Shown: positions 37,388-43,547 of the stretch, piece after piece | Layout of the letters: every line of letters begins with the position of its first letter | Position numbering within the stretch: the first letter of the stretch is position 1 | Origin: Polyangiaceae bacterium | GTDB lineage: Bacteria > Myxococcota_A > Polyangia > Polyangiales > Polyangiaceae | Assembly (NCBI GenBank): GCA_019637295.1 | Contig: JAHBVX010000003.1 | Span: 124,001-188,000, forward strand | Reading direction: 5' to 3' | Length of the DNA: 64,000 bases | Position numbers and translations under genes: made by a program | Notes under the pieces: model-generated | Databases searched by the model: none | The model's input: only the letters and a program-made list of their open reading frames with translations | Told to the model about the DNA's origin: nothing

Positions 37388-37393
37388 TATAGT
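37388..37393 (+). promoter_or_regulatory. -10 hexamer TATAGT for the radical SAM operon
   Basis: TATAGT (overlapped by TAGTAT at 37385-37390) ends 10 nt before the ATG at 37404. This leaves a leader of only a few bases. It is the only good -10 in the ~90 nt between this operon and the divergent outer-membrane gene. Confidence 0.4.
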
Positions 37394-37403
37394 GTGGCCC
37401 AGT

Positions 37404-38510
37404 ATGGCCGAGCGACCGCGACCCAAAGTCTACAGCCTCGCGATCGAGACCACGCCCGTCTGCAACCAACACTGCGATTACTGCTACAACGAGTGGCGCG
37501 CAGACAACGGCGCCTCGCTGCGCACGGGCCAGTCCGACTCGGTAATCGCCCGGGTAGAGCGCCTGCTCGACGCTTGGGACGTCGACCATGTCACGGTGAC
37601 GGGCGGCGAACCCTTCGCGCACGCGCGCGTGTTCGAGTTGCTCGACAGCATCGCGGCGCGCGGAGTCGCGATTCAGATCATCTCCAATGGCGGGCTCATC
37701 GACGCGAAGCTCGCCGACCGCATCGCCGAGCGGCAACTGCGCTACATCCAGATCACGCTGAACGGACCCGACGCGGAGCTGCACGAGGCACACGTCGGCA
37801 AGGGACACTTCGACAAGACGCTGCGCGGCATCCGCCTCCTGCGCGAGCGAGGCGTTCCCGTCGTTGGCTGCATCGTGGTCACCAAGAAGAACCACGACCG
37901 CATCGGCGAGACGCTCGAGCTGTTCCGACAGCTGGGCGTCAAGCAGGTCGCCCTCAGCCGCTTCAGCCCCGCCGGCTACGCGGCGCGCTACGCCGCCCAG
38001 CTCCTCCCCACCCGCAGCGAGCTGCTCACGGCCTTTCACCAGGCGCTCCCCTTCGCCCGCGAGCAGGGCATGGTGCTGCACTGTACGATGCCCGTGCCGC
38101 CCTGCACGGTGGAGCTCGAGGACCTCGCGCCCATTCACTTCGGCACCTGCCCCGTAGGCACCTCGATGCAAGAGCTCGCCCTGGGCCCAGACGGCAGACT
38201 GAAGAACTGCACCCTGCACAAGACCGCGCTCGGGGGCGTCGCCGACGTGCTCGATCCGAGCGTGGATCTCGTCGCGCTGCTCGCTGCCCCCGAGCGGAGC
38301 GAGTACCGCAGCGAGCTGCCAGAGTTCTGCCAAGGTTGCAGCCACGCCTCGACCTGCGGCGGCGGCTGCGGGGCCGCGGCCGAGTGGGTCAGCGGTCACG
38401 CGAGGAAGTTCCCCGACCCCCTGGTCCTGCAGCACGTGGACGACCACCTGGCGGCGCGCTTCGAGCGCGAGCGCCGCGACGGCAAGACGCATCTGGAGCT
38501 AGTCCTGTGA
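37404..38510 (+). CDS. SPASM-domain radical SAM enzyme (peptide/protein modification)
   Basis: The protein is 368 aa from the ATG at 37404; upstream in-frame text is antisense to the barrel gene. Cys20, Cys24 and Cys27 form the CxxxCxxC radical SAM cluster site in TTPVCNQHCDYCYNEW, followed by GGEPFAHARV. The C-terminal SPASM-type region carries extra cysteines for auxiliary Fe-S clusters: FGTCPVGTSMQELALGPDGRLKNC, FCQGC, STCGGGC. SPASM enzymes commonly act on ribosomal peptides, installing thioether, C-C or other crosslinks (family knowledge). The next gene, 27 nt downstream, encodes a short Cys-repeat protein that is the obvious candidate substrate; a second radical SAM gene follows. Confidence 0.9.
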   Translation: MAERPRPKVYSLAIETTPVCNQHCDYCYNEWRADNGASLRTGQSDSVIARVERLLDAWDVDHVTVTGGEPFAHARVFELLDSIAARGVAIQIISNGGLIDAKLADRIAERQLRYIQITLNGPDAELHEAHVGKGHFDKTLRGIRLLRERGVPVVGCIVVTKKNHDRIGETLELFRQLGVKQVALSRFSPAGYAARYAAQLLPTRSELLTAFHQALPFAREQGMVLHCTMPVPPCTVELEDLAPIHFGTCPVGTSMQELALGPDGRLKNCTLHKTALGGVADVLDPSVDLVALLAAPERSEYRSELPEFCQGCSHASTCGGGCGAAAEWVSGHARKFPDPLVLQHVDDHLAARFERERRDGKTHLELVL

Positions 38511-38537
38511 TCGAGACGCAGAACGGGAGCGACCGCC

Positions 38538-38915
38538 ATGACGGATGACGACAAGAAGACGATCCTGGCGCGACGGGCGCGCTTCGTCGCGGCCGCGCTC
38601 ACCAGCGCAGGGCTCGGCGCGCTGGCGGTCCAAGGCTGTGGCGGCGACACCAGCTCGCCGGGCACGGACGCGGCCGCGGACGGCGCCGTGGACGCCCAGC
38701 CCGACGGGCCGTCGGTGTGTTTGTCGCAGCCCTTCGACGGCGGGCACGACGCGCCCCAGCCCTGCCTCTCGCCGCCGCCCCCAGACGCCGCGGACGACGC
38801 GGACGACGCGGACGACGCGGAGCCACAGCCGTGCCTGGCCCCGCCCCCGGCCGAGGCGGGCGACGACGCCGTCCCCCAGCCCTGCCTGAGCCAACCCCCA
38901 CCCGACGCGGGCTGA
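38538..38915 (+). CDS. Candidate radical-SAM substrate: short exported protein with Cys-Leu/Pro repeats
   Basis: The protein is 125 aa with GGGAG about 10 nt upstream of the ATG. The N-terminus has RR at 12-13 and a hydrophobic run ending LAVQGC (Cys34), fitting a Tat-like or Sec lipoprotein signal. A Gly/Asp/Ala linker follows. Then come four repeats around Cys61, Cys76, Cys99 and Cys116, each CL(S/A)(Q/P)P followed at +6 or +7 by Asp or Glu. Between the second and third is a run of Asp-Asp-Ala triplets. The only cysteines besides the lipobox one are in the repeats. It lies between two radical SAM genes and is the likely target of both. An unmodified disordered lipoprotein remains possible. 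Confidence 0.72.
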   Translation: MTDDDKKTILARRARFVAAALTSAGLGALAVQGCGGDTSSPGTDAAADGAVDAQPDGPSVCLSQPFDGGHDAPQPCLSPPPPDAADDADDADDAEPQPCLAPPPAEAGDDAVPQPCLSQPPPDAG

Positions 38916-38919
38916 ACGC

Positions 38920-41085
38920 GTGCGTCGCGATCGCCCTCGCGTCCTTCTGCTCTGGCCCGGCGGGCTGTTCTCCGGGGGCGCCAATTTCGGAGTGCCGCAG
39001 CTGCTGATGATCGCGTCTGCGCTGCGCAAGGCTACCTCGGCGGACGTGGACGTCGTGGACCTCGACATGGAGCGCGCGTTCGGTCCGGTCAGCCTGGAGC
39101 GGCTGTGCGCCCGCGGCTACGACCTGGTCGGTATCTCCTGCTATTCGTCCTACGACTACTTGAAGGTGATGGCGATCGCCGAGCGGATCGCCGCCTTGCT
39201 GCCGCGCGCGTGGATCGTGACCGGCGGCTACCACCCGAGCGCGCGTCCCGAGGACTTCACTCGCGAAGGCTCCGCCATCGACTTCGTGGTCGTGGGCGAC
39301 GGGGAGCGACCCATGGTCCGGCTCGTGGAAGCGCTCGAGCGCGGCACGCGGCCACTGGTGACCGTACTCGGCCCAGACGCCGTGCCCCACCCGGCCGAGT
39401 TGATGCCTTACGACTGGTCCCTGCTCGAGCGCTACCGACCCATCGCGCGTCGCGTCGCTTCTCAAGCAGAGATCTATCTGTCCCGCGGCTGCCCTTACGA
39501 CTGCGCGTTCTGCATGGAGCGCGCGAAGCGGGACGTCTCCTGGCGCTCCATCGAGCCCGAAGCAGCCATCGAGGAACTGCATCGCCTCGATGGCTTTCTG
39601 GATCTCTCCAGCTGGACGTTGTTCGTCGCTGACGCGCTGTTCGGCATGAAGCGCGCGTGGCGGCGCAGCTTCCTCGAGTCGTTGGCGAGGCGACCGCTGC
39701 GAGCGCGCAAGGTGTGGCTGCTGATCCGCGTGGATCTCATCGAGCGCGAGGACCTGGAACTGATGGCGCGGGCCAACGTGAGCCCAGGCTTCGGCCTCGA
39801 GTCGGGGGACCCGGAGCAGCTCGCGCGCATTCGCAAGTCTGGACGTCTGGACACCTATCTCGAGCACATGCTCGAGGTCGCCTCCTGGGCGCGCGAGCTG
39901 TCCGTACCGTTCGGCGCAAACATCATCGTCGGTCATCCGGGCGAGACGGAGGCGTCCATGAGGCGAAGCGCCGCGTACATGGAAAAGCTGTTCTTGTCGC
40001 CCGCGGGCACGACGGGGTTCTTGAGCGTCGATCCGTTCCGCCTGTACCCCGGCTCTCCGATCGACGAGGACCGGGCTGAGTGGGAAGCGCGCACGGGCAT
40101 GCACGTGCACCACTATCCCTGGTGGGAGGACGGCGACCAAGACTTCTTGAGCGAGTGGGTCGACCCCTCGTCCGAGCTGACCTTTCGTGAGACGCTGAGC
40201 CTGCGGCACGAGCTGTTCGCCCCGATCGTCAGCCAGCTGCGTGACCGCTTCGTGTACGACGGTCCAGCGCGAGACTACTACCTGCGCGCGATAGATGAGC
40301 AAATCGATCTGGTGAAGCCCCGACGGGTGTTGCGTCAGCTCGGGATGTGGCACCTGTGGCGAGGCCTGCTCGGTCAGGTGCCAGACCGATCGCGGGGCCT
40401 CGATGCCGACGACGAGCTCGCGTCCGTCGCGCGGACCGCTCGCCAGCACACCCTGGACGCCATGCGCATTCGGCCCTCACCCGCCGTGGCACGCGCACTG
40501 CTCGACGTCCCGCGCGAACGCTTCGTCGATGCCGAAGACATCGCGCGCAGCGCCGACGACCGAGCCCTGCCCTTGGGCGCAGACTCGCGCTCGACGATCT
40601 CGGCGCTGCACGCGTACGCCATGGCGCTGGACGCGCTCGGGCTGGCCGAAGGTGACACGCTGGTCGACCTCGGGGCGGGCAGCGGCTACGGCTCGGCGGT
40701 GGCGGCCGAGGTGGTCGGGCCTCGCGGCTCCGTGCTGGCCATCGAGCTCGTGCCCGAGCTCGCGGAGCGGGCGCGCCACGCCCTCAGCAGCAGGCCGCAG
40801 GTCAGCGTTCTGTGCGCGGACGCCCACGAGGTCGCGCGCTGGCAGGGCGCCAGCCGCGTGATGGTCGGCTTCGCCGTCTCGGAGGTCCCCGCTCGCTGGA
40901 TGGACGCCCTCGCGCCCGGAGGGCGCATGGTTCTCCCGGTCGGTCGCCGCGATCAACGACTGCTCCTGCTCGAGAAGCGCGCCGACGGCACGCTCACCCG
41001 GGACCTCGGCGCGGTTCGCTTCGTCGCGGATCGCTGCGAGAAGCAGCTCGCCGCCGCGGAGCTCGGGTCACACGTCGCCGAGTGA
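38920..41085 (+). CDS. B12-binding-type radical SAM enzyme fused to PCMT-like methyltransferase
   Basis: The protein is 721 aa from the GTG at 38920, 4 nt after the small-protein stop. Residues ~8-150 are a cobalamin-binding Rossmann-type domain (RVLLLWPGGLF...DLVGISCYSSYDYLKV, GGYHPSARPEDF), without the DxHxxG ligand motif. The radical SAM core has Cys191, Cys195 and Cys198 (SRGCPYDCAFCME) and GFGLESGDPEQL. Residues ~510-715 match protein-L-isoaspartate O-methyltransferase: MRIRPSPAVARALLDVPRERFVDAE and VDLGAGSGYG as the SAM-binding site. PCMT homologues in some RiPP pathways turn Asp into aspartimide (family knowledge), and the neighbouring protein is Asp-rich. The combination is unusual; the reaction is not predictable. 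Confidence 0.85.
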   Translation: MRRDRPRVLLLWPGGLFSGGANFGVPQLLMIASALRKATSADVDVVDLDMERAFGPVSLERLCARGYDLVGISCYSSYDYLKVMAIAERIAALLPRAWIVTGGYHPSARPEDFTREGSAIDFVVVGDGERPMVRLVEALERGTRPLVTVLGPDAVPHPAELMPYDWSLLERYRPIARRVASQAEIYLSRGCPYDCAFCMERAKRDVSWRSIEPEAAIEELHRLDGFLDLSSWTLFVADALFGMKRAWRRSFLESLARRPLRARKVWLLIRVDLIEREDLELMARANVSPGFGLESGDPEQLARIRKSGRLDTYLEHMLEVASWARELSVPFGANIIVGHPGETEASMRRSAAYMEKLFLSPAGTTGFLSVDPFRLYPGSPIDEDRAEWEARTGMHVHHYPWWEDGDQDFLSEWVDPSSELTFRETLSLRHELFAPIVSQLRDRFVYDGPARDYYLRAIDEQIDLVKPRRVLRQLGMWHLWRGLLGQVPDRSRGLDADDELASVARTARQHTLDAMRIRPSPAVARALLDVPRERFVDAEDIARSADDRALPLGADSRSTISALHAYAMALDALGLAEGDTLVDLGAGSGYGSAVAAEVVGPRGSVLAIELVPELAERARHALSSRPQVSVLCADAHEVARWQGASRVMVGFAVSEVPARWMDALAPGGRMVLPVGRRDQRLLLLEKRADGTLTRDLGAVRFVADRCEKQLAAAELGSHVAE

Positions 41086-41934
41086 GTCGAACACGGCCCG
41101 AGCGTCCTGCCCGAGCGCGTCGCGACCCAGCGGCGGCAGCGAGCCGAAGTGACCAAGCCACCTCGCGTGCTCGCGCTGCAGTCCCCGCGCAGCCGCACGC
41201 GTCTTCAGCAGCGTGAGCGCGACTTGCTCGCCGACACGCTCGGTCAGCGCGGCGCCCAGGTGCCGACTGCGGCGTCCCACCTCGTGAACGGTGGCTTCGT
41301 GGGCTGCCTGCCACGCGACGTGCTCCGGGGTTGGACCTCGGTCCGCCTCGGGACAGCCCACCCAGATCTCGCTCCCCCGTACTCGTCCGCGTAGCCACAG
41401 CGGGCGGACGCAGCACACGACGCTCTGCTCGAGCTCGGGCGCCACTTTGGCCAGCGCGACGAGTCGGTCGGCGAGCTCGTCCAGCCGAGGCGCCGGCGGC
41501 GGGAGTGCGTCGACCACCTCGCGCTCCAGCAGCGCGGCGGCGCGCAGCACTTCGGACAGCGGCCCGAGCTCGGCGAGGGGCCCGAGCAACTCCGGCGCGG
41601 CCACCTCCCTCGCCCCAAGCTGGGCGATGTCCCGACACGCTACCGCCTCGGCCTGCTCCACCCCGTCGAACAGCCACGCCATCAGCTGCAGCGCCGCCAT
41701 GGCCTGGTGGCGGGCGACCTGCCCGAGCAGGCGGGCGTCTTGCCCGAGGCAGCGCGACTCGGCCTTGCCGGCGAGCCCGGCGACCCAGGCGACGTAGCGT
41801 GGCTCCCAGACGGAAGCGGGCTGGTCCCGGCCGCCCCGCACGTGCGCGAGCACGTGAAACACCAGCTCCGCCCAGGGCCGCCGCTGGCCGAACGCCGGCG
41901 GGGTGAAGCTGCCACGGGGCTGGCCATGAGCCAC
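41068..41934 (-). CDS. Unknown Ala/Leu-rich helical protein next to radical SAM cassette
   Basis: The protein is 288 aa from the GTG at 41934. It is mostly helical (LLGQVARHQAMAALQLMAWLFDG, DELADRLVALAKVAPELEQSVVCCVRPLWLRG). A cluster EHVAWQAAHEATVHEVGRRSRH contains an HExxxH, which resembles but does not equal the HExxH metalloprotease motif. I do not recognise a family. It converges with the B12 radical SAM gene and overlaps its last 18 nt, and is divergent from the IscA-like gene. Composition and codon use look native. It could belong to the modification cassette, but the opposite strand makes this only a possibility. Confidence 0.6.
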   Translation of the reverse strand: MAHGQPRGSFTPPAFGQRRPWAELVFHVLAHVRGGRDQPASVWEPRYVAWVAGLAGKAESRCLGQDARLLGQVARHQAMAALQLMAWLFDGVEQAEAVACRDIAQLGAREVAAPELLGPLAELGPLSEVLRAAALLEREVVDALPPPAPRLDELADRLVALAKVAPELEQSVVCCVRPLWLRGRVRGSEIWVGCPEADRGPTPEHVAWQAAHEATVHEVGRRSRHLGAALTERVGEQVALTLLKTRAAARGLQREHARWLGHFGSLPPLGRDALGQDARAVFDSLGDV

Positions 41935-42665: not shown

Positions 42666-43547
42666 ATGGCTCGAGAAATAGACTCCTCCCTCTCCCGCTA
42701 CATCACCAGCGTCCACCAGTTCCCCAAGCTCGACCGCGAGCAAGAGCTCGTGCTCACCCGACGCTGGGTCGTCGATCAGAGCCCGGACGCCGCGGATGAG
42801 CTGGTGAGAGCGCACCTGCGCTACGTCGTCGCCATCGCGCTGAAGTACCGGCGCTACGGCGTCCCCCTCTCCGAGCTGATCGCCGAGGGCAACTTCGGGC
42901 TCGCCCACGCGCTCAAGAAGTTCGAGCCCGAGCGGGGCAATCGCTTCGTGACCTACGCCGCCTATTGGATCCGGGCCTACGTCCTCAACTACGTGATTCG
43001 CTCCTGGAGCCTGGTAGGCGTCGGCTCGGGGGCTCTGCGCTCCAAGCTGTTCTTCAAGCTGCGCCGGGAGCGGGTGCGCGTGATGAACCTGATCGGCGAT
43101 CAAGAGCAGGCCAATCAGGTGCTCGCCGAGCAGTTCAACGTGTCACCCACGCAGATCGCCAGCATGCTGCGGCGACTCGAGACCCGCGACCTCTCGCTCG
43201 ACGGCAAGGTCTTCGACGACTCATCAACGTCCCTGGTGGACACCCTCGTGGCGCCGGATCCGGACCAGGAGGACGACTTCGTCTCGGACCAGCGCCAGAC
43301 CGTCGTGAAGCGCACAGTGCGCAACGCCCTTGGCTCCCTCGACAAGCGCGAACGCTTCATCGTGGAGCACCGCCTGCTAGCGGATGCGGAGGACGAGCTG
43401 TCCCTGGCCGAGCTCGGCCGCAGGCTCGGCGTGAGTCGCGAGCGAGCACGCCAGCTCGAGGAGCGCGCGAAGCGCAAGCTCAAGCTGCGAATCGCCGAGC
43501 TCTCTCGTGAAGAGGGCTTTGCCCTCGAGGATCTCCAGGCCGCTTGA
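42666..43547 (+). CDS. rpoH: RpoH-type (sigma-32) sigma factor
   Basis: The protein is 293 aa. Region 2 is clear: ELIAEGNFGLAHALKKFEPERGNRFVTYAAYWIRAYVLNYVIRSWSLV. Just after it is KLFFKLRRER, matching the RpoH box (QRKLFFNLR) diagnostic of heat-shock sigma factors. Region 4 has LSLAELGRRLGVSRERARQLEERAKRKLKLRI, the -35-binding helix-turn-helix. Region 1.1 is absent, as expected for RpoH. It directs heat-shock or developmental transcription; myxobacteria carry several such paralogues, so a specific name such as SigB or SigC is not justified. rnpB begins 43 nt downstream on the same strand. Confidence 0.9.
   Translation: MAREIDSSLSRYITSVHQFPKLDREQELVLTRRWVVDQSPDAADELVRAHLRYVVAIALKYRRYGVPLSELIAEGNFGLAHALKKFEPERGNRFVTYAAYWIRAYVLNYVIRSWSLVGVGSGALRSKLFFKLRRERVRVMNLIGDQEQANQVLAEQFNVSPTQIASMLRRLETRDLSLDGKVFDDSSTSLVDTLVAPDPDQEDDFVSDQRQTVVKRTVRNALGSLDKRERFIVEHRLLADAEDELSLAELGRRLGVSRERARQLEERAKRKLKLRIAELSREEGFALEDLQAA

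Follow-up and report, generated by a model that had tools for sequence, protein, structure and literature searches.

A gene cassette in a 64,000-nucleotide stretch of Polyangiaceae bacterium DNA (the window; G000:C19:124001-188000, from a 7.65-Mb genome of 25 contigs) very probably belongs to an undescribed pathway of protein maturation, with two radical S-adenosylmethionine (SAM) enzymes that would modify Pro-Cys-Leu (PCL) motifs of many exported envelope proteins. As an initial annotation of the window had proposed, and as open reading frame (ORF) coordinates and Pfam matches confirm, a SPASM radical SAM gene, a gene for a 125-aa Cys-Leu repeat protein, and a gene for a B12-binding radical SAM enzyme fused to a PCMT domain follow one another with gaps of 27 and 4 nt (P0001, P0002, and P0003; Table 1). 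The system includes a fourth conserved gene (P0004), which is convergent with the P0003 gene and overlaps the end of its ORF. Both radical SAM enzymes belong to kinds known for peptide modification. No description of such a system was found in the open-access literature searched, most subscription papers lying outside the reach of the search.

The four Cys repeats reported earlier for P0002 are real (SVCLSQP, QPCLSPP, QPCLAPP, and QPCLSQP), and they recur throughout a family of proteins recognized by an N-terminal profile. Because this profile sees only the first 30-32 residues, downstream Cys-Leu content provides an independent test. Cys-Leu was found downstream in all 79 distinct family proteins collected and in 20/20 further profile matches chosen for long frames or low scores. 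Past residue 36 of the 79 proteins, Leu directly follows Cys in 254 of 340 instances, compared with 14 of 201 (7%) in a background set of 34 window ORFs totaling 17,315 aa, in which no P-x-[PVAI]-C-L occurs. The residue after P-x-[P/V]-Cys is Leu in 173/174 cases, and the favored context is P-Q-[P/V]-C-L-S-P-P-P. Family and background frequencies, together with the near-invariant Leu, reject chance Cys repeats. Eleven of the 79 proteins contain a single motif, from which it follows that one motif makes up a complete site and does not need a partner copy; these one-motif proteins also disfavor disulfides or a pairwise crosslink between motif copies.

Repeated isolated Cys residues in flexible Pro-rich segments could also suit a carrier or cofactor role, in which the enzymes would assemble a small molecule or cofactor, either on the motif Cys or for it, as an attachment or redox/metal site, with the repeat protein as a scaffold. 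Scaffold-type biosynthesis has a precedent in 3-thia-amino acids made on a carrier peptide (PMC9303977). This explanation is considered very improbable, as the near-invariance of Leu after Cys suggests that two side chains matter as a pair and not a free thiol as a handle, and the loci have no recurring gene for a ligase, a protease, or export.

Family members in clade 1, which includes the window's system, share the N-terminal consensus [I/V]LxRRxxF[V/I]xxAL (ILARRaxFVAAALA in the window genome), with R12 and R13 invariant across 43 aligned proteins. The motif departs from the canonical twin-arginine (Tat) register RRxFLK: RR is invariant, and the hydrophobic/aromatic residue lies one position later (RRxx[FL][VI]). 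Alignments indicate that it probably serves as a recognition element. The initial annotation saw no obvious leader, but a leader-like element exists, namely, this near-invariant N-terminal signal motif in clade 1 and a C-terminal motif in clade 2; besides the N-terminal motif, it overlooked the unlinked paralogues and P0004. Its proposal of an exported small protein stands, and members are often lipoprotein-like. Linked small proteins are typically built from the N-terminal motif, a lipobox-like Cys, and a Pro/Asp/Ala-rich stretch that holds two to six Cys-Leu motifs, the lipobox-like Cys of P0002 (VQG-C34) and of many relatives being judged by eye. No NCBIfam, Pfam, or PHROGs model matched the small substrates at cutoff.

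Seven proteins of the window genome match the N-terminal profile (P0002 and six unlinked members), and all seven contain downstream Cys-Leu. The earlier claim that the small protein is the substrate of both enzymes therefore holds only in part: recurrence beside the enzymes supports it, and the role of lone substrate is lost, since most of the seven candidates are unlinked and some are larger, envelope-type proteins. The highest number of members in one genome is 13 (G093). Elsewhere the family includes OmpA-domain members (OmpA, 2.4e-16), a PEGA-domain member with a TPR-like region, and members of barrel type, the barrel being assigned by eye from sequence. Some substrates (L006:2754-3275, L064, and L065) have long Gly-rich spacers of the GGAGGxQGPGGQGG type by or between the Cys-Leu motifs in place of Asp/Ala-rich ones, and L210:482-865 has a single Cys-Leu motif within a MYXO-CTERM-like tail (TIGR03901, 15.6 bits, under the cutoff of 20).

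A gene-encoded precursor recurrently linked to modifying enzymes, one mark of a ribosomally synthesized and posttranslationally modified peptide (RiPP), is seen here. In a conventional RiPP pathway, the small protein would be cut to free a modified peptide (an antibiotic, signal, or metallophore), and its unlinked homologues would be other such precursors. Tailoring of RiPPs is a typical task of SPASM and B12 radical SAM enzymes (PMC5682303), and precursor paralogues adjoin the enzymes here. OmpA-domain, TPR/PEGA-barrel-type, and other larger members are, however, not peptide precursors, and no set of RiPP export or cleavage genes recurs at the loci: no dedicated leader protease or exporter was among the recurring genes, and the genes common to many loci are those of the enzymes, the substrates, and the HExxH-like P0004 only. 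A natural product of this kind is thus improbable, and a single linked precursor as in classic RiPPs is rejected by the unlinked paralogues.

Recurrence of the cassette supports maturation of exported proteins by the enzyme pair. In 84,980 species genomes, a GTDB pattern scan with P0003, the only coverage outside Myxococcota, yielded 15 clear relatives. The scan gave 16 loci: 14 from named myxobacterial or deltaproteobacterial metagenome-assembled genomes (MAGs), one from an uncultured MAG (L017), and a weak actinobacterial match to the radical SAM core only (L018). Among the clear relatives, the SPASM gene lies directly upstream of the B12 radical SAM gene in 12/12 loci holding both, and in the majority of loci one to four paralogous genes for small proteins are found between the two enzyme genes or just upstream. 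The Cys-repeat protein thus reappears next to the enzyme pair, its number of repeats differing between loci, which is the supporting result that the initial annotation had named. Cassettes with no Cys-repeat protein nearby, which it had named as counterevidence, do exist (L003, L016, and L173), but they do not refute a substrate relationship, because 8 to 11 family members lie unlinked elsewhere in those genomes (9 for L003 and 11 for L016).

Among the 184 genomes of the order, 42 have the B12 radical SAM enzyme, 43 the SPASM enzyme (omitting one match of 31% identity), and 40 both (40/42, P = 2e-34), the two genes being adjacent, on the same strand, and in the same order in 36 of the 40. N-terminal profile A1 matches in 33/42 genomes with the B12 enzyme and 1/142 without (P = 5e-27); of the nine genomes missed, several reflect the threshold, with Cys-Leu members just above the cutoff or present in the loci (G120/G121, seen as G013/G005; G088; and G090). 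Across the phylum (379 genomes), the broader profile A2 matches exactly the 20 genomes with a close B12 radical SAM homologue (≥49% identity) and 0/359 others; since the training set of A2 included members from some of these genomes, the presences, unlike the absences, are partly by construction. In genus g36, the near-complete genomes G133 and G134 lack both enzyme and substrates, which other g36 genomes have, and this joint loss argues against mere descent.

The genes could form one regulon in which the motif stays unmodified, as a metal-binding or disulfide site, while the enzymes act on something else. Several observations weigh in this direction or otherwise against maturation of the motifs by the enzyme pair. 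Modification itself is proposed from genomic and sequence comparison, and the Fisher P values ignore shared ancestry. Genome G184 retains substrates with PCL motifs, and neither enzyme was found there. In G155, the SPASM gene, a substrate, and the fourth gene occur without the B12 enzyme (L176, G155:C138:1000-10000), which means that the B12 step is not obligatory and suggests the SPASM step as the core reaction. The PCMT-like domain of clade 2 has lost its motifs, leaving a degenerate active site, and G118 has a B12 radical SAM/PCMT homologue without the rest of the system (L161, G118:C354, 55% identity). The exact 20/20 and 0/359 co-occurrence, an operon structure kept in two diverged clades with different N termini and the same Cys-Leu motif, and odd and single motif numbers, which speak against disulfide pairing, nevertheless make an unmodified motif extremely improbable. 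As separate observations, the G184 substrates (L174 and L175) are of OmpA and TPR/barrel type, the absence of enzymes being due to an assembly gap or to loss, and the L161 homologue, for which neither a SPASM partner nor substrates were found, has altered surroundings of its Cys triad (SSGCPSRCAFCAGP) and is possibly a repurposed paralogue.

Enzymes of clade 2, with identities of 34-44% (B12 radical SAM) and about 30% (SPASM), come mostly from other classes. Lipoprotein-like GPCLS-repeat proteins are encoded directly upstream of the SPASM gene in 12/14 of the clade 2 loci reaching far enough. These proteins have 2 to 10 GPCLS-type motifs, lack the ILxRR motif, and share a conserved C-terminal element, LPxD[V/I/L]xx[R/K]L, which is variant in one of twelve (L138). 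Three intermediates (G220, G301, and G358; 43-45% identity) combine a diverged ILxRR-type N terminus with Cys-Leu motifs. From these comparisons, the enzymes retain the Cys-Leu core, and it is the recognition element that seems to shift from the N to the C terminus between clades.

P0001 matches Pfam Radical_SAM (1.9e-27) and has the core CxxxCxxC at C20-C24-C27. Its auxiliary-cluster residues C234, C249, C269, C309, C312, C318, and C322 are invariant in 58/58 homologues and fit the SPASM pattern (CX9-15GX4C ... CX2CX5CX3C) through C249...G264-x4-C269 and C309/C312/C318/C322, departing from it in the absent last SPASM Cys and the extra invariant C234. P0003 comprises B12-binding (residues 28-135; 2.8e-16), Radical_SAM (186-351; 3.8e-14), and PCMT (512-703; 1.7e-35) domains. 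It has the features of a B12-dependent radical SAM enzyme, with C191/C195/C198 invariant in 48 homologues, and those of a PCMT, with the motifs STIS (active site) and DLGAGSGYG (SAM binding). Its structure model aligns with PCMT 2yxe (Z 29.0, root mean square deviation [rmsd] 2.0, 208 aligned), TsrM 6wte (Z 19.9, rmsd 4.2, 413 aligned), and MgmA 9ccb (Z 18.6, rmsd 4.0, 372 aligned). The modeled fold thus resembles that of a B12 radical SAM methylase-like enzyme, a likeness that would leave the reaction itself unfixed. The earlier view that the cassette lies outside described families agrees with the lack of matches at curated cutoffs: both enzymes match superfamily-level models only or score far under equivalog cutoffs, and no NCBIfam SPASM equivalog was found for P0001 at cutoff (best, 96 versus 265 bits).

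P0004 contains a conserved GR...Q..HE..[HV] motif, in which His-Glu is kept in 37/37 homologues, and matches no Pfam or NCBIfam family. The second His of HExxH is replaced by Val (HEATV), as in most clade 1 relatives, while the full HExxH is found in clade 2. Foldseek gave no significant match with the P0004 model, and alignment with 8s5f (a RiPP oxygenase, ChlB HExxH domain) is weak (Z 5.7, rmsd 4.0, 151 aligned) and tied with other HExxH-type enzymes. In the order, the gene is present in 32/42 genomes with the B12 radical SAM enzyme and 2/142 without (P = 1e-24).

The initial annotation also placed a shared promoter at 37388-37393; a consensus scan found no sigma-70-type -35/-10 pair there, though TATAGT is present. 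A sigma-factor-like gene, RpoH-like by eye, lies downstream at 42666-43547 (+) and is syntenic in three relatives (L003, L016, and L173). Overall, the interpretation first given to the cassette is partly supported.

Table 1. Features of the cassette (window positions) and unlinked family members (contig and approximate location) in the window genome
Feature	Position	Strand	Basis
SPASM radical SAM enzyme P0001, 368 aa	37404..38510	+	ORF call, Pfam, Cys invariance in 58/58 homologues
Candidate substrate P0002, 125-aa exported Cys-Leu repeat protein	38538..38915	+	Sequence, motif statistics, recurrence
P0002 N-terminal motif TILARRARFVAAALT, residues 8-22, signal-peptide-like	38559..38603	+	Alignments
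P0002 lipobox-like V-Q-G-C34, candidate lipidation site	38628..38639	+	By eye from sequence
P0002 Cys-Leu motif 1, PSVCLSQP (C61)	38709..38732	+	Sequence, motif statistics
P0002 Cys-Leu motif 2, PQPCLSPP (C76)	38754..38777	+	Sequence, motif statistics
P0002 Cys-Leu motif 3, PQPCLAPP (C99)	38823..38846	+	Sequence, motif statistics
P0002 Cys-Leu motif 4, PQPCLSQP (C116)	38874..38897	+	Sequence, motif statistics
B12-binding radical SAM/PCMT fusion P0003, 721 aa, GTG start	38920..41085	+	ORF call, Pfam, alignment, structure model
Fourth conserved gene P0004, 288 aa, HExxH-fold-like model	41071..41934	-	Conservation, co-occurrence, model
Unlinked member, 85 aa, two motifs	C25:158 kb		
Unlinked members with TSP3-type acidic stretch, ends CLSIDP or CLWLDLDV	C25:45 kb, C1:735 kb		
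Unlinked member, 116 aa, three motifs	C19:831 kb		
Unlinked member, 216 aa, C terminus KPQICLSFGCSDW	C1:270 kb		
Unlinked member, 414 aa: TPR-like region, CMPCLSPPPP segment, barrel-type C-terminal part	C7:76 kb		

In the proposed mechanism, the SPASM and B12 radical SAM/PCMT enzymes would act in the cytoplasm on exported proteins with a common N-terminal motif, I-L-x-R-R-x-x-[F/L]-V-x-x-A-L, which would be recognition element and signal peptide at once. Each P-x-[P/V]-C-L-S motif would be modified independently at its Cys-Leu pair. Radical formation of a C-S or C-C bond involving Cys, Leu, or both is the probable task of the SPASM enzyme, and radical C-methylation that of the B12 enzyme. This combination of bond formation and methylation as the exact chemistry is a guess, and a doubtful one. 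Isoaspartate formation as the common reaction is unlikely, as some substrates (L006) have no Asp close to the motif, and in clade 2 the PCMT active site is degenerate. After modification, the proteins would be exported and either receive a lipid or enter the outer membrane. A single pair of enzymes would serve many scattered substrates, namely, small lipoproteins (1 to 7 motifs), OmpA-type proteins, and proteins of barrel type whose motif lies in a Pro-rich linker, and the HExxH-like protein may be a third enzyme or an accessory. The role can be guessed at as metal binding, as in bufferins, or as hardening, protection, or stabilization of surface proteins; the position of the motif in linkers before outer-membrane-type domains tilts the choice, without deciding it, toward a structural or protective role.

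Such a pathway would work like a RiPP-lipoprotein system, yet it falls outside the MNIO family: P0002 has no Pfam match, and no MNIO (DUF692) or DUF2063 is among the recurring genes listed. In the ChrH/DybH subfamily of MNIOs, a single type of enzyme modifies substrates that have a short motif in common and range from peptides and lipoproteins to proteins larger than 30 kDa (PMC12636315). The proposal shares with these systems and with DAG-RiPPs (RiPP-lipoprotein hybrids) cytoplasmic modification before export, a putative lipoprotein signal, and many substrate sizes, whereas their enzyme is an MNIO (DUF692) and their motif a C-terminal CPACGMG or repeated EGKCG (PMC12636315). What sets the present system apart from DAG-RiPPs is its pair of radical SAM enzymes, an N-terminal signal motif of its own, the repetition of P-x-P-C-L, and a scattered substrate set that reaches 13 proteins in one genome. 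Bufferins and oxazolins (PMC12452194) are likewise exported Cys-modified proteins in which a signal peptide replaces the classical leader, some being lipoproteins or fusions with larger proteins, but they depend on an MNIO with a DUF2063 partner and on Buf domains, none of which matched here. MNIO systems also set a precedent for the proposed order of events: there, modification proceeds quickly enough to compete with export, and substrate recognition may depend in part on the signal peptide (PMC12636315, PMC12452194).

P0001 shares the SPASM architecture of ranthipeptide/sactipeptide synthases and TvgB, whose substrate likewise has a repetitive core motif, each repeat of it being modified by TvgB (PMC9062424); the substrate motif and export route here differ from those of SPASM maturases such as TvgB, and no NCBIfam SPASM equivalog is matched at cutoff. 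With RiPP-associated alphaKG-HExxH oxygenases (ChlH, BpmH, and PflC; PMC12636437), P0004 shares an HE-containing helix, but it lacks a sequence-level match to them and has Val for the second His. P0003 has the B12 domain and radical SAM core of C-methyltransferases such as TsrM, CysS, TokK, and MgmA, from which it differs in its fused C-terminal PCMT-like domain and 13-20% identity.

Radical SAM tailoring is known mainly from peptides encoded beside their enzyme. Here, one enzyme pair seemingly serves up to 13 mostly unlinked substrates, some of outer-membrane type, with a near-perfect genomic signature. A 2025 preprint noted that RiPP-lipoproteins beyond the MNIO family may exist (PMC12636315), and the present system, if the proposal is true, would be a radical SAM case, widening the idea to whole envelope proteins. 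The chemistry is directly testable through the substrate list, the minimal motif, and the natural variants (the SPASM-only locus, the degenerate PCMT domain, and the C-terminal recognition motif). A broader reading, whose chances are put at slightly less than even, is that of a phylum-wide envelope-protein modification pathway rather than a natural-product pathway, with a dedicated signal-peptide class and Cys-Leu modification by the radical SAM pair on lipoproteins and OmpA- and barrel-type proteins. If true, its scope would be comparable to that of lipidation or a sorting system.

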